Below are positions 25,297 through 32,818 of a stretch of DNA of 40,808 bases, piece by piece. Origin of the DNA: Gammaproteobacteria bacterium (GTDB lineage Bacteria > Pseudomonadota > Gammaproteobacteria > Pseudomonadales > Oleiphilaceae); the NCBI GenBank assembly GCA_030427465.1, contig JAUIAZ010000004.1, positions 1-40,808 on the forward strand, written 5' to 3'. Position numbers and translations under genes: made by a program. Numbering within the stretch: the first letter of the stretch is position 1; the number at the start of each line of letters is the position of its first letter. The notes under the pieces were generated by a model. The model made no database searches. It was not told the origin of the DNA and was given only the letters and a program-made list of their open reading frames with translations.

Positions 25297-25352
25297 AAAA
25301 TGGTAGCAAGGGCGAGATTCGAACTCGCGACCCCAGCATTATGAGTGCTGTG
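25297..25352. repeat. att direct repeat, left copy (3' part of tRNA-Met)
   Basis: AAAATGGTAGCAAGGGCGAGATTCGAACTCGCGACCCCAGCATTATGAGTGCTGTG identical to 32738-32793; lacks the tRNA 5' half. Confidence 0.95.
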
Positions 25353-25477: not shown

Positions 25478-25524
25478 GTAGCACAGAGGTAGCACAAAAC
25501 TGATCTGTGCTACCTCTGTGCTAC
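25478..25524. repeat. 19-bp perfect inverted repeat with 9-nt spacer upstream of integrase
   Basis: GTAGCACAGAGGTAGCACA-AAACTGATC-TGTGCTACCTCTGTGCTAC. Confidence 0.95.
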
Positions 25525-25548
25525 CACGAATTGATGGAAATATGACCA

Positions 25549-26865
25549 ATGGCGACTCAAACAGAAAAGTCTCCCCGACTGAATTTCACGAACGCACAAC
25601 TGGCGAAACTTCCAATTCCTGAAACGGGCAGGGTGGTCTATCGGGATCATGGTGGGCAGCAATCAATCACGGGTCTGCAATGTTGGGTGTCATCATCCGG
25701 CCACAAGTCATTCGTGCTTCGGAAGAAACTGCCCGGACAAAAGTCACCCGTGAGTGTCACCATAGGAACTTTTCCTGAACTGGCGGTTGATGCTGCTAGA
25801 AGCCTTGCCCGTGACAAGATCGCCATGCTTCAGGGTGGTGTGAATCCGAACGAAGTGAAACGCAAACAGGCGATACAGGGCACCACGTTCGGGCAGGCGT
25901 TCAAAGACTACATGCAATCCGGTAAGCAGCGATCCCAGAACACGATCGGCAACTATCAAACGATACGGCGCAAGTATCTGTACGATTGGCTCGACACTCC
26001 GGTGAAGTCGATCACCACTGATGCGATAAGCAAACGGCACACGGCAATCAGTAAAGGCAGTTTGCCACCTGGTGACGGGTACAAGGCCAGCGACATGAAG
26101 CCGAGTGTGGCGGCAGCCAACAAAACAGTTCGTATAATCCGGGCGGTGATTAACTTCGCTATGGACCAGTACCCTGAACTTGAAATGACTGATAACCCGG
26201 TGCGAAAGATGCCGGTCAAGGTCAACACGGAAAAGTCACGCCGAACCCGTTTATGGGAAGCCGACCTGCCAGCCTGGTTTGAAGCAGTGGAAGCCTTGCG
26301 CCAGTCAAACAACCTTTTCGATGTTACAGCGGCTGACTATTTGACCTTCGTCTTGATGACTGGACTACGGCGGCGGGAGGCTTCCGGGTTGACATGGGAT
26401 CGGGTGAATATGCGAAACCGCCACCTGACGTTACTCGATACGAAATCCGGTGAACCCCTGCTACTGCCTATCCCGGATTACCTGATGGACATTCTGAAGC
26501 GGCGGCAGAAGCTGGGCGGTGAGTATGTTTTCCCCGGTGGCGGGAAGAACAACACCCTGGATGATCCACGGCGGCAAATTGCGTGGATCAGAAGCCAATC
26601 TGGTGTGTCGTTTACGATCCACGACCTTCGCCGCACCTTCGGCAGCATTGCCGCAAGTCAAGACATTAACTTTGCGGTCCTGAAAACATTACTGAACCAC
26701 AGCAAAGGCCGGGACGTTACCGAGAATCACTATGTCAGCCTTGACGTTGAACGATTGCGGCGACCGATGCAGGCAATTTCCGCCTATATTCTTCGGGCGG
26801 CTGGGATCAGCCAGAACAATGTCACAGCCCTTCCGGTGGCTGATCGGGCAGGGGGTGAGTCATGA
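25549..26865 (+). CDS. int: tyrosine-type integrase (P4-like)
   Basis: MTGLRRREASGLTWDRV (Arg box), FTIHDLRRTFGSIAAS (HxxR), LLNHSKGRDVTENHYV (H and Tyr). Confidence 0.95.
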   Translation: MATQTEKSPRLNFTNAQLAKLPIPETGRVVYRDHGGQQSITGLQCWVSSSGHKSFVLRKKLPGQKSPVSVTIGTFPELAVDAARSLARDKIAMLQGGVNPNEVKRKQAIQGTTFGQAFKDYMQSGKQRSQNTIGNYQTIRRKYLYDWLDTPVKSITTDAISKRHTAISKGSLPPGDGYKASDMKPSVAAANKTVRIIRAVINFAMDQYPELEMTDNPVRKMPVKVNTEKSRRTRLWEADLPAWFEAVEALRQSNNLFDVTAADYLTFVLMTGLRRREASGLTWDRVNMRNRHLTLLDTKSGEPLLLPIPDYLMDILKRRQKLGGEYVFPGGGKNNTLDDPRRQIAWIRSQSGVSFTIHDLRRTFGSIAASQDINFAVLKTLLNHSKGRDVTENHYVSLDVERLRRPMQAISAYILRAAGISQNNVTALPVADRAGGES

Positions 26866-27566
26866 AGCTGGTATGGTCAGCCATTGCACTTGCCACCACC
26901 CAGCATGGCTTTGATAAACCCCGTCTGGAAGTGGTGAAATTAATCTGGGATCGGCACGACCGATGCCCTGCTGTTCGGTCGCTCGACCAGCAAGACATTA
27001 CTGAAGCGGTGCACTGGGTGAGGCTGGATAACAAGCGGTCCTGGGATGACTTCAGCCTCGATGAACAACTGATGTTTTACTTCGCCAGTAACTACCTGAA
27101 AGCGATCAAGGTCGCTGCCATGGCCGGTGAACTGAACCTGACACACCTTGCCGACCCAACACCCCGGTCTGACAGTGACGGTGATCTGGGCATGGGGTGG
27201 CAGTTCTCACCCGATGACATCATAGGCACCGATGACCTGATAGCGTTCGGCAGGCGGTACAGTATCGATTCTGACAAGTTGACCAAGGTCATCAAAGATT
27301 TACAGAAACCCGAGCCGGTGGCAGACACCAGAATGGCTTTGTTCAACCAGTGGTGTGACCGGCTGGAAGCCAAGCTGGGTGGTACACCCTGGAAAATGGA
27401 TGATCGCTTGCCACTCTCGAAAAGCATAATAAAAGCTGCTTTGCCGCAATCACTTCACCCGAATTTTGATCGGTTTTGGCGCACCCAGAAACGTATTAAG
27501 CTGGCCTCCGGTACTGGCAGAACAGCACCCCCCAGTGAACTGCTGGCGATAATCAACAGTCTTTAA
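26862..27566 (+). CDS. hypothetical protein, element-encoded
   Basis: ATG overlaps int stop (4 bp) with upstream GGGGGTGA; no family recognised. Confidence 0.75.
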   Translation: MKLVWSAIALATTQHGFDKPRLEVVKLIWDRHDRCPAVRSLDQQDITEAVHWVRLDNKRSWDDFSLDEQLMFYFASNYLKAIKVAAMAGELNLTHLADPTPRSDSDGDLGMGWQFSPDDIIGTDDLIAFGRRYSIDSDKLTKVIKDLQKPEPVADTRMALFNQWCDRLEAKLGGTPWKMDDRLPLSKSIIKAALPQSLHPNFDRFWRTQKRIKLASGTGRTAPPSELLAIINSL

Positions 27567-27707: not shown

Positions 27708-27935
27708 ATGAACAAAGATTCCTATTTCAATGACCTGGGGCAGCTGATACCTGCTGCGGAGATGGCGGACCTACTTGGTGTTAAACCCCAGACGCTCGCG
27801 AAGTGGCGTTGTACCCGCACTGATGGACCGGTTTTCGTAAAAGTTGGCCGAGCCGTTCTTTACCCAGAAAGACCCAACGCTGACCTGCTGGCTGCTGGAC
27901 TGAAGCGGGGTAATCACGGGGGGACCCCGGAATGA
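27708..27935 (+). CDS. AlpA-like helix-turn-helix regulator/excisionase
   Basis: LIPAAEMADLLGVKPQTLAKWRCTRTDGPVFVKVGRAVLYPERPNADLLAAG, HTH_17/AlpA pattern. Confidence 0.85.
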   Translation: MNKDSYFNDLGQLIPAAEMADLLGVKPQTLAKWRCTRTDGPVFVKVGRAVLYPERPNADLLAAGLKRGNHGGTPE

Positions 27936-28538: not shown

Positions 28539-30563
28539 ATGAATACTAATTTATCAGAAAACAATGAGCTATGTACAACAGACACCATTCCCGGCGTGTC
28601 ATTCCCTTGTGAAAAACGCGTGTCAGTGCAAAAGCTCAAAACACATAACGACTCGCCAGGTGTAACTGGTGAAGTCTCACTAGGTAAGCTGCTGGCACAT
28701 TATCAATCGCCCAGAGTGACCGATCAGAAAATTGGTGGCGGCATAATATTTTGCAGACTCAAGGAAGGTGCTGAACAACGAAGGAATGAAGACATCCAGT
28801 CTTCGACAATGATTTTCCTGGATATTGACGGTAAGCAGGATGATGGATGCCCTGGGTTCGGCATGATCCGCCAGCGAATCAAAGATCAAGGTTACGCTGG
28901 AATACTCAAGACCACTCACAGCCACGGCCTAGATGGTCGTAATTGCTACCATATCCTCATCGCTCCAGACCGGGAAGTTTTGCCTCACGAATACCCGGTG
29001 ACCATTAAATTCATCGCTGAAAGCCTGGGGCTTTCGGATTGGCTGGACCCTACCAAAATGAACCCGGCCTCAGTATGCAGAAAGCCTATCGTACATCCAG
29101 ACAGAAAGGACCTGTTCGACTGTGAAAGCATTGCTGGCGATCTACTCCCGGTTGATGAAGTGCTTTCAAAATACCTAGTAGAACAACCCTTATCGAAAGC
29201 GGTACGTCATCGCAAAGCCCGTGAGTTCGATCTGAACACCCGTACAGGCCGGGTCAATCAATATGCACGGGGTCATTGGAAAGAAATTCTCACGACTATA
29301 GGGGTGGAACCATCTTTACTCGATGGCAAAGCTGGCCCTTGTCCCGGATGTGGTGGCGATGACCGGCATACATTTGATGATCAGTTCGGGGAAGGCACTT
29401 ATTACTGTCGTGGTGGTGCTGAGGGGAATCAGACCAGTGGTGATGGCATTGATGCGGCTCAACACTATCTGAGTGTTACCGCTGCTGAGGCACTCGAAAA
29501 AATCGAGTCTGCAATGATGATGCTTGACCTGCTGCCATCGAAAGAAAAACCAACGTGGGACCTGAGTAAATTCGCACTAAACGGGGGACTTGAGCAGATG
29601 AAAACTGAAATGGCGGATGCGGTCTATGTACTTGCAAAGCTGGCGGTACAAGGTCAGATCACCTTTTTCTTCGGTGGTCCGAATACCGGCAAGACACTGA
29701 TCACTATTCGCCTGCTTATGGATTCAGTGAGTGCCGGGATTATCCAGGGTTCCAACGTCATATACATCAACGCCGATGACACATATCGGGGTCTGGTTGA
29801 GAAGCTGGAACTTCTGGAACCCTACGGCATAAAACTTCTGGCACCAGGACACAAGGGTCTGAAGACTGACATGATTCTGGACGCCTTGCAGTCACTGGTT
29901 GAGCGGGGTGAAGTCGCTGGTTTGATCATTGTGGTCGATACCATGAAGAAACTCGGTGACCTGATGGATAAAGGTCAGATGCGGCAGGTCATGGAAGTGC
30001 TGCGCCAGTTTGTCAGTCATGGCGGCACCCTGATTGCACTTGCTCACGTGAATAAGCACCGTGATTCAGAGGGTAAACCAGTTTTCGCTGGCGTGAGTGA
30101 CACGCTGGATGACTGTGATGGTGCTTACACCCTGGACCTGGTGGACGATAACAACGGCAGACGCACGGTGTATCTGAAGAACATCAAGTCGCGCGCCGAT
30201 GTTGACCATGAAGCCTGGTATCAGTACGTGAGGGTTGCAGGGCATTCCTATGGTGATCTGGTCGATTCGGTTACCGCTATCGACTCAAGTGATGCTTCTC
30301 AGGCTGTGAGCCGTGCACAGCAAGCCAGCGAGATTCAGAACGACAAACAATTCATTCAGGTGATTGCTGAAACCATTGGTAATGAAAGCCTGAGCAAAAC
30401 CAAGTTGATCAAGGTTGTCGCTGATAAAGGGCTTCCCAGACGAACTATCGCAGAGGTCCTAGAGAAGTATGACGGTGATCTTTGGTTGTCCCAGATTGGT
30501 GAGCATAACCGGAAAACATATCAGTTGATTGAAGGTGGTGATGGAAGCCAGCACCTTTTCTGA
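28539..30563 (+). CDS. primase-helicase replication protein (AEP/primase-like N-terminus, Zn-ribbon, RepA/RecA-type helicase)
   Basis: IFLDIDGK (DxD-like), KTTHSHGLDGRNCYHILI (sxH-like), CPGCGGDDRHTFDDQFGEGTYYCRGG Zn ribbon, FFFGGPNTGKTLITI Walker A, LIIVVDTMKKL Walker B. Confidence 0.85.
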   Translation: MNTNLSENNELCTTDTIPGVSFPCEKRVSVQKLKTHNDSPGVTGEVSLGKLLAHYQSPRVTDQKIGGGIIFCRLKEGAEQRRNEDIQSSTMIFLDIDGKQDDGCPGFGMIRQRIKDQGYAGILKTTHSHGLDGRNCYHILIAPDREVLPHEYPVTIKFIAESLGLSDWLDPTKMNPASVCRKPIVHPDRKDLFDCESIAGDLLPVDEVLSKYLVEQPLSKAVRHRKAREFDLNTRTGRVNQYARGHWKEILTTIGVEPSLLDGKAGPCPGCGGDDRHTFDDQFGEGTYYCRGGAEGNQTSGDGIDAAQHYLSVTAAEALEKIESAMMMLDLLPSKEKPTWDLSKFALNGGLEQMKTEMADAVYVLAKLAVQGQITFFFGGPNTGKTLITIRLLMDSVSAGIIQGSNVIYINADDTYRGLVEKLELLEPYGIKLLAPGHKGLKTDMILDALQSLVERGEVAGLIIVVDTMKKLGDLMDKGQMRQVMEVLRQFVSHGGTLIALAHVNKHRDSEGKPVFAGVSDTLDDCDGAYTLDLVDDNNGRRTVYLKNIKSRADVDHEAWYQYVRVAGHSYGDLVDSVTAIDSSDASQAVSRAQQASEIQNDKQFIQVIAETIGNESLSKTKLIKVVADKGLPRRTIAEVLEKYDGDLWLSQIGEHNRKTYQLIEGGDGSQHLF

Positions 30564-30577
30564 AAGGTCGGAAATCA

Positions 30578-30836
30578 GTTTTACCAATGAAGGGGGGGTG
30601 GGGTGTGAAAGTGGCAAAACTGGCAAAACTGGGGTGTTCTGGTCGAACTGGCAAAACTGATTGTCGATGCGTGGAAGCACATGCCTGCGAAAAGAAAAAA
30701 ACAGTGTTATTCACGATAGTGACCGGCCCGAAAGCCTTGCCACCAGTGAGTTTAGCCAGTTTTGCCAGATATGCCAGTTTTACCAGATATGCCAGATATA
30801 CCGTTTTTACACCCCACCCCCCGACATTGGTAAAAC
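30578..30836. repeat. inverted-repeat iteron structure, candidate replication origin
   Basis: 33-nt arms 30578-30610 (GTTTTACCAATGAAGGGGGGGTGGGGTGTGAAA) and 30804-30836 (reverse complement GTTTTACCAATGTCGGGGGGTGGGGTGTAAAAA); 9-bp units TGGCAAAAC at 30612-30657 and GTTTTGCCA/GATATGCCA-type at 30750-30803 in inverse orientation. Confidence 0.85.
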
Positions 30837-30960
30837 ACCCTCTTTTTCTTCGCAGGCTGGTGGCGTTATGTGAATTGTACTTGAGCAGGTTTGATAGATG
30901 GTCCGGGCGCGCGGGGGCATCTGCAAAGCTTGTTTTTTAATCGAACCGGAGTACCAACCA

Positions 30961-32063
30961 TGAAAGAATTAACCAAACTGAAAGACCTTGAAACCCAGCT
31001 TCAAAAGGCTGAACAAGAACATGAGTACGTCATCACAGATGCGGCTGACGGTCGATTGACCGATGCAGAAGTTGAAGCCTCGCTGAACAATATCCTGGCT
31101 TTGCGTGAAAAGGTTGCCACTTACAGGCAGATTGAGGAAAGGCGTTCTGAGTTGAAAGCACTGGACAAGGCAGCCGCTGATGACGCAAGACGGGCAGCCC
31201 AAGGCCGCGCTGTGATCGCAGAGTTGAACGGCTTGTATGACACCGCACAGACCGCCCTGAGCCTGGTCATGCAATCACCACCCCACAAGCTGGTCAGCGC
31301 CCTGGAAGCCTTCAGGGAAGCCGAACAGCCCTTGCTTGCGAAAGTGTATGGTCAAGGTGTCCACGGTGAACGTGTCGAATCCATTGCTGAGAAGCTACCA
31401 GCATGGCTGGCTGAACTGACCAGCAAGGGCGGCTGTCCTGTCCTGAGACACAAGGCATTGCTATACACCAACGGTCATTACCTGACACATTATCCCCGCA
31501 CTGACTGGCAGGATGTCAGTGCAATTCCTTCCCTTGCGCTGGCGGCATTGACCAAACACGCAGTGCTGGCTGTACGGGAAAAGCACGGGTGCGGTCAGTT
31601 TGGTGATGACAAAACGAAAGACATGCCTTGCTTCCGGTTGCTGCTACCACTCGAAAGGCGGTGTGACAAAGCAGCACAAGCAGAAAAGGAAGCTGAGACA
31701 GAACGCCGGGCTGAGACTCAGCGGCTAAAGAACGATCCTGTTCACCACTTGGAAGGCTTGCGGCTGGCAATCGAAAGGGACACACCGACACCAGCCATCA
31801 TAAACGAAGCAACACGGTCCCTGTATGATCGTATGAACCCGGACCTACGTAAGCGGTATGTTGCGGCCACCTTGGCTCTGATGCGCCTCAGACCGGACCT
31901 GAGTGCTTCCCTGGAAGCCGATATGACCGCCCACGGCTTTGCCCTGGCTGATCGGAACAAAGCCCTTCCTATGGCTGAGTATGGCCGAGTGTTGGGTGGG
32001 CAGTTCCCCGACCTGTTTGCTGAACAGATTGAACATGAGGCAGAGCACCCGGTCACAGCCTGA
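30961..32063 (+). CDS. hypothetical protein with N-terminal coiled-coil, element-encoded
   Basis: Start at ATG 30961 (MKELTKLKDLETQLQKAEQEHEYV); heptad-like N-terminus; located between origin and cos-like site. Confidence 0.75.
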
Positions 32064-32678: not shown

Positions 32679-32697
32679 GTAGCACATGGGTAGCACA
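32679..32697. repeat. arm-type repeat pair at right end of element
   Basis: GTAGCACA-TGG-GTAGCACA, same layout as left-end GTAGCACA-GAG-GTAGCACA. Confidence 0.85.
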
Positions 32698-32741
32698 GAA
32701 TTTTGAAGGGTAGGGGAGGTGTTACGTAAGTTGTTGAAAAA

Positions 32742-32818
32742 TGGTAGCAAGGGCGAGATTCGAACTCGCGACCCCAGCATTATGAGTGCTGTGCTCTAAC
32801 CAACTGAGCTACCTTGCC
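32742..32818 (-). tRNA. tRNA-Met (anticodon CAT), intact
   Basis: Reverse complement GGCAAGGTAGCTCAGTTGGTTAGAGCACAGCACTCATAATGCTGGGGTCGCGAGTTCGAATCTCGCCCTTGCTACCA. Confidence 0.95.

Follow-up and report, generated by a model that had tools for sequence, protein, structure and literature searches.

A candidate iteron replication origin downstream of a primase-helicase gene in a small integrated element of a gammaproteobacterium

Directly 3' of a primase-helicase gene in a 40,808-bp stretch of DNA from a gammaproteobacterium of the family Oleiphilaceae (referred to below as the window), two facing arrays of 9-bp units lie within a long inverted repeat, and we read this site as an iteron origin from which an integrated mobile element of 7.4 kb would replicate. 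The probability of this reading, in which the initiator binds probably via its C-terminal winged helix, is put at about 0.84. A replication origin had been proposed in the first-pass annotation of this DNA, and the proposal is supported both by the presence of iterons beside relatives of the primase-helicase in other genomes and by a layout common to the crr region of P4 and the origin of EcCICFT073.

The repeat structure and its element

The primase-helicase gene (28539-30563, + strand), which was identified by Pfam and PHROG matches and by alignments, encodes a protein of 674 aa. Its stop codon ends at 30563 and, after 14 bp, the structure begins at 30578, just after the gene as first described. 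The left outer inverted repeat GTTTTACCAATG (30578-30589, + strand) contains a single, oppositely oriented unit, placed outside the G-tract GGGGGGGTGGGG (30592-30603, + strand), and is followed by the left iteron array (30612-30657, + strand) with five abutting units of 9, 9, 10, 9 and 9 bp and the consensus TGGCAAAAC. This consensus is found at 30612, 30621 and 30649, with TGGTCGAAC at 30640 and a degenerate 10-mer, TGGGGTGTTC, at 30630. The right array (30750-30803, - strand) consists of six abutting 9-bp units of the GTTTTGCCA type in inverse orientation, and it is bordered by a C-tract, CCCCACCCCCC (30812-30822, - strand), and the right outer repeat CATTGGTAAAAC (30825-30836, - strand). 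Between the arrays lies a centre of 92 bp (30658-30749), the proposed melting region, which at 49% GC, against 52% for the element, is hardly AT-rich overall and is so only locally, in an A-rich pocket of 30 bp with 27% GC (about 30689-30718).

A base-by-base check returned both arrays exactly where they had been placed, and the length of the centre and its A-rich stretch were as described. The near-identity claimed for the 33-nt outer arms (30578-30610 and 30804-30836) needs qualification: their first 12 nt (GTTTTACCAATG) are identical and the G-tract that follows differs by one G, and the likeness holds with a one-base shift but is lost without it.

The period-9 score of the site has a z value of 14.3, and its inverted-array score is 7, a value reached by none of 600 dinucleotide shuffles, the best of which scored 4. 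When the whole window was scanned at 400 bp, a score of at least 5 was reached at this site only. A chance origin of the arrays is excluded by the shuffles together with the control windows considered below. A pattern search of the 3.96-Mb genome for the 18-mer TGGCAAAACTGGCAAAAC with at most two mismatches gave three occurrences, all within the site, and no DNA-level copy of the site was found in the phage collection. A near match in the genome of one relative (G660) turned out to be due to chance.

The element is integrated at tRNA-Met and is bounded by an exact 56-bp att repeat. Its left copy, attL (25297-25352), is a partial tRNA-Met copy, scored as a partial tRNA by Rfam, and attR (32738-32793) overlaps the intact tRNA-Met gene (32742-32818, - strand). 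The genes begin with a tyrosine integrase, int (25549-26865, + strand; PF00589, PF13356), whose end shares an ATGA overlap with an unknown gene of 234 aa (26862-27566, + strand) that yielded neither a Pfam or PHROG match nor sequence relatives in the fetched loci. Then follow a small AlpA-like HTH protein gene (27708-27935, + strand), two small ORFs, the primase-helicase gene, the repeat structure, an unknown 367-aa ORF (30960-32063) for which Pfam, PHROG and the fetched loci gave no matches or homologues and, as the last of the element, a 67-aa ORF. No partition gene was recognised in the element by Pfam and PHROG searches. Repeats of the GTAGCACA type occur near both ends (25480-25530 and 32680-32700), with an inverted pair beside attL, and they are probably integrase arm sites.

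In its size and in the order of int, an ATGA-overlapping gene in the position of iolg, an alpA-like gene and prim, the element resembles the PICMI satellites of the Vibrionaceae (PMC10803314), but it is integrated at tRNA-Met and not at fis, the PICMI hallmark. Within the int, alpA and prim set, the integrase and the primase-helicase are clear, whereas the AlpA-like assignment depends on a weak HTH_17 match (E 0.001) under the curated cut-off. Origin iterons are not mentioned in the PICMI paper (PMC10803314). The element is probably a minimal phage satellite or something similar.

Related loci and the helicase that accompanies them

Homologues from the order and the class provided a helicase alignment which, used as query, revealed 80 loci in 84,980 genomes of bacteria and archaea; viral contigs yielded 24, whereas a protein scan of them with a single sequence gave none. 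Reading the DNA after the helicase stop revealed facing arrays in many relatives, with units that differ between them, for example GTTTGAACA (L014), GTTTCCCTA (L050 and L114), GTTATTCCA (L032) and TTTGCCAAA (L027). Inverted arrays of 8-9-bp units with a score of at least 5 were present in 46 of 89 regions downstream of the helicase, as against one of 356 control windows from the same loci, while at a score of at least 4 the counts were 57/89 and 8/356; about half of the relatives carry no array above the threshold at the expected place in these 89 regions. The first-pass annotation had suggested testing the origin reading by looking for conserved iterons behind homologous primases, and the outcome was strongly positive.

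The strongest tandem period among 100 loci was 9 in 38, 8 in 15, 18 in 10 and 17 in 8 (71 in all), where shuffled sequences gave about 4 to 7 for each. Further unit copies, counted from seeds taken solely from direct arrays of at least three units, were more often inverted than direct in 34 loci, with the reverse in four. Tracts like those that frame the window arrays are also enriched beside the arrays of relatives: of 45 loci, 24 have G/C runs (at least five, or split runs of three, no more than 45 bp outside the array) beside the left array and 18 beside the right one, compared with 4.9% of control 49-mers, about ten times the chance level. Their sense varies among loci and is the same in three of the 10 loci that carry both tracts.

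In some elements that have another gene after the helicase, the array lies away from the helicase stop. It precedes the stop by about 3.1 kb in L043 and L044, by 5.8 kb in L045 and by 3.0 kb in L072, and follows it at 2.5 kb in L034. Such movement within elements, combined with continued association with the helicase, is easier to reconcile with an origin than with a transcript-end signal, and the displacement of the array when another gene follows speaks for a movable cis site and against a terminator. Two Vibrio loci (L062, L066), read by eye, carry a short form of the array right after the stop.

Some loci depart from the common arrangement in other ways. The polarity of the arrays is opposite in L072, L100 and L114, with GTTTTG-type units on the helicase side, and the two arrays are still mutually inverted. 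In L009, L010, L013, L020, L024, L037 and others, the helicase and winged helix form a protein of their own, about 340-400 aa long and lacking the primase part, and arrays still follow it. The contigs of L004, L005, L007, L046 and L063 break off a few to about 120 bp from where the helicase gene ends, which would fit an assembly stop at the array region.

The window protein comprises a variable N-terminal primase part with a DxD motif, a Zn ribbon (aa 263-303), a RecA-type (AAA_25) helicase (aa ~360-560) and a C-terminal winged helix (aa ~598-664). Alignments show that the helicase and the C-terminal domain are the constant part of the family, while the N-terminal part is freely replaced, the version in the window matching that of L050 alone among the relatives. 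AlphaFold gave no reliable model of the N-terminal primase part (pLDDT 32) but modelled the C-terminal 99 residues (aa 576-674) as a winged helix with a pLDDT of 84 and a core above 90. A Foldseek search with the C-terminal model retrieved generic winged helices in the PDB only, with E above 0.01. The part of the gene that codes for it (30264-30560, + strand) is proposed to specify the iteron-binding domain.

Unit spelling is correlated with distance between the helicases (Mantel r = 0.32, p = 0.002) and also with distance between the winged helices (r = 0.28, matched in none of 500 permutations); the partial correlations of unit spelling were weaker, at 0.19 (p = 0.012) for the helicase and, for the winged helix given the helicase, a marginal r = 0.12 (p = 0.04). 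In the pairs L040/L049 and L014/L093, helicases that are about 90% identical accompany winged helices that are 55-59% identical and units that differ, while in L037/L064 and L088/L092 the winged helices are about 90% identical and the units similar. These comparisons suggest that the winged helix may read the unit. The winged helix as sole partner of the unit spelling was set aside, as co-variation cannot part it from the helicase.

A sequence of events can be proposed. The element would first be excised, and the primase-helicase would then bind both facing sets of 9-bp iterons, with its C-terminal winged helix as the most likely contact. Two helicase rings may assemble facing each other and open the centre, with melting in the A-rich pocket, and replication would be primed in both directions. 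Points that weigh against this model are the slight AT-richness of the centre as a whole, the share of relatives with no array above threshold after the helicase, the marginal partial correlation for the winged helix and the generic nature of its structural matches.

Comparison with characterised origins

The crr of P4, its annotated cis-required region, carries 8-bp type 1 repeats, which alpha binds, with a spacing of 9 bp in one orientation and 18 bp in the other. Like the window site, it lies directly 3' of a primase-helicase gene (alpha) and holds short units 9 bp apart in both orientations. It differs in carrying two 120-bp copies of the repeat set and in the spelling of the unit, TGTTCACC as against TGGCAAAAC. 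P4 has a second origin, and its alpha protein is an SF3-type helicase with a Toprim primase. The structure of the C-terminal domain of alpha has been solved (1ka8); this domain is an origin-binding winged helix. Our inverted-array metric is 7 for the window site, 9 for P4 crr and 6 for the EcCICFT073 origin.

EcCICFT073 is a PICI of E. coli whose origin supports plasmid replication with its pri-rep (PMC6092414). We located this origin by the island annotation, 3' of the primase gene, and not by the figure of that paper. Its units, CTGTCTACC and GGTAGACAA, are 9 bp apart on facing strands and, as at the window site, the units are of 9 bp and inverted. Both EcCICFT073 and SaPI origins share with it a position 3' of pri-rep and two iteron sets around a centre, but the window site differs from PICI and SaPI origins in that its centre is AT-rich only locally and that it is framed by G/C tracts. 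The initiator helicases of SaPI and SCC bind iterons just downstream of their own gene by a C-terminal domain, apparently as two hexamers (PMC7581432). The initiators themselves are dissimilar, since that of EcCICFT073 is of the D5_N/DUF5906/Pox_D5 kind while the window protein is of the RecA type (AAA_25), with no BLASTP similarity between them. The window protein lies outside the initiator types of P4 crr and PICI-type origins, which are SF3/D5 or P4-alpha helicases. By comparison, the reading of the window site as an iteron origin of the P4/PICI kind is well supported, with another helicase family as its partner and many relatives beside it.

A further parallel comes from the archaeal plasmid pRN1 of the Sulfolobales, which needs a stem-loop downstream of its primase-helicase gene in order to replicate (PMC4234260). 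There too an inverted repeat immediately downstream of a gene for a primase-helicase with a winged helix holds the origin, which shows low sequence but high structural conservation (PMC4234260). It differs from the window site in having an SF3 helicase and in being described as a stem-loop and not as 9-bp iterons.

Other readings of the site and its wider meaning

The main rival to an iteron origin is a stem-loop origin of the kind proposed for pRN1, in which an extruded hairpin (cruciform), instead of or besides linear 9-bp sites, would be what the initiator recognises or where it loads. A single strand of the site would form one long hairpin of -127.9 kcal/mol (z -10.3), the arrays of relatives fold better than shuffled sequences (median z -4.0) and facing units pair slightly better when kept in register than when shifted (1.91 versus 2.18 mismatches of 8, p = 0.001), so that pairing may play some role. 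Folding is, however, expected of any inverted pair of arrays. Moreover, left and right unit numbers are unequal (e.g., 4 and 12, 2 and 7), the polarity of the G/C tracts is not always complementary (same sense in 3/10) and variant units on one side of the window site (GATATGCCA) have no mirror on the other. We regard the hairpin as an unlikely, if serious, contender.

Strong RNA folding and a position directly after the stop codon would also suit a terminator, an attenuator or a 3'-end stabiliser of the primase-helicase transcript. Yet the site matches neither the intrinsic-terminator consensus nor any Rfam family, the array may sit kilobases from the gene end in relatives, and a terminator has no need of tandem units in variable copy number. 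A known RNA family was rejected on the Rfam result, and a terminator on the lack of a consensus match and on the shifts in array position between loci, and of the readings considered we hold an RNA element to be the least probable. Scarcely more credible is another kind of cis site, a locus for packaging (pac/cos), partition or incompatibility to which a different protein would bind. Iterons are also used in plasmid copy control and partition, and satellites need packaging sites, but the arrays follow the helicase-winged-helix gene across many elements whose other genes differ, the unit spelling tracks that protein and the element carries no recognised partition gene; no tool result favoured a packaging, partition or incompatibility function.

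For the preferred reading, an iteron origin, no description of the origins of this group of small integrated elements was found in the open-access literature. Features that seem new are how broad the group is, the framing by G/C runs, unit spelling that changes from one element to the next, and the occurrence of the 9-bp inverted layout with unrelated helicases. Tentatively, and at somewhat less than even odds, the loci may represent an apparently undescribed but widespread replicon type of proteobacterial mobile elements, in which a RecA-type helicase with a winged helix and a swapped N-terminal primase part would act on G/C-framed inverted 8-9-bp iterons of fast-changing spelling and fixed layout. 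The 9-bp inverted layout common to P4, PICI and this unrelated helicase would then imply either convergence or the exchange of an origin-recognition module between helicase superfamilies.

The outcome is a candidate origin for this group of small integrated elements, along with roughly a hundred natural relatives. Changes of spelling beside near-identical helicases suggest selection for compatibility of co-resident elements. Finally, the same layout accompanies unrelated or distantly related helicases in the window, in P4 alpha and in PICI Rep, and this raises the question of whether the 9-bp inverted spacing reflects a shared way of loading two helicase rings.
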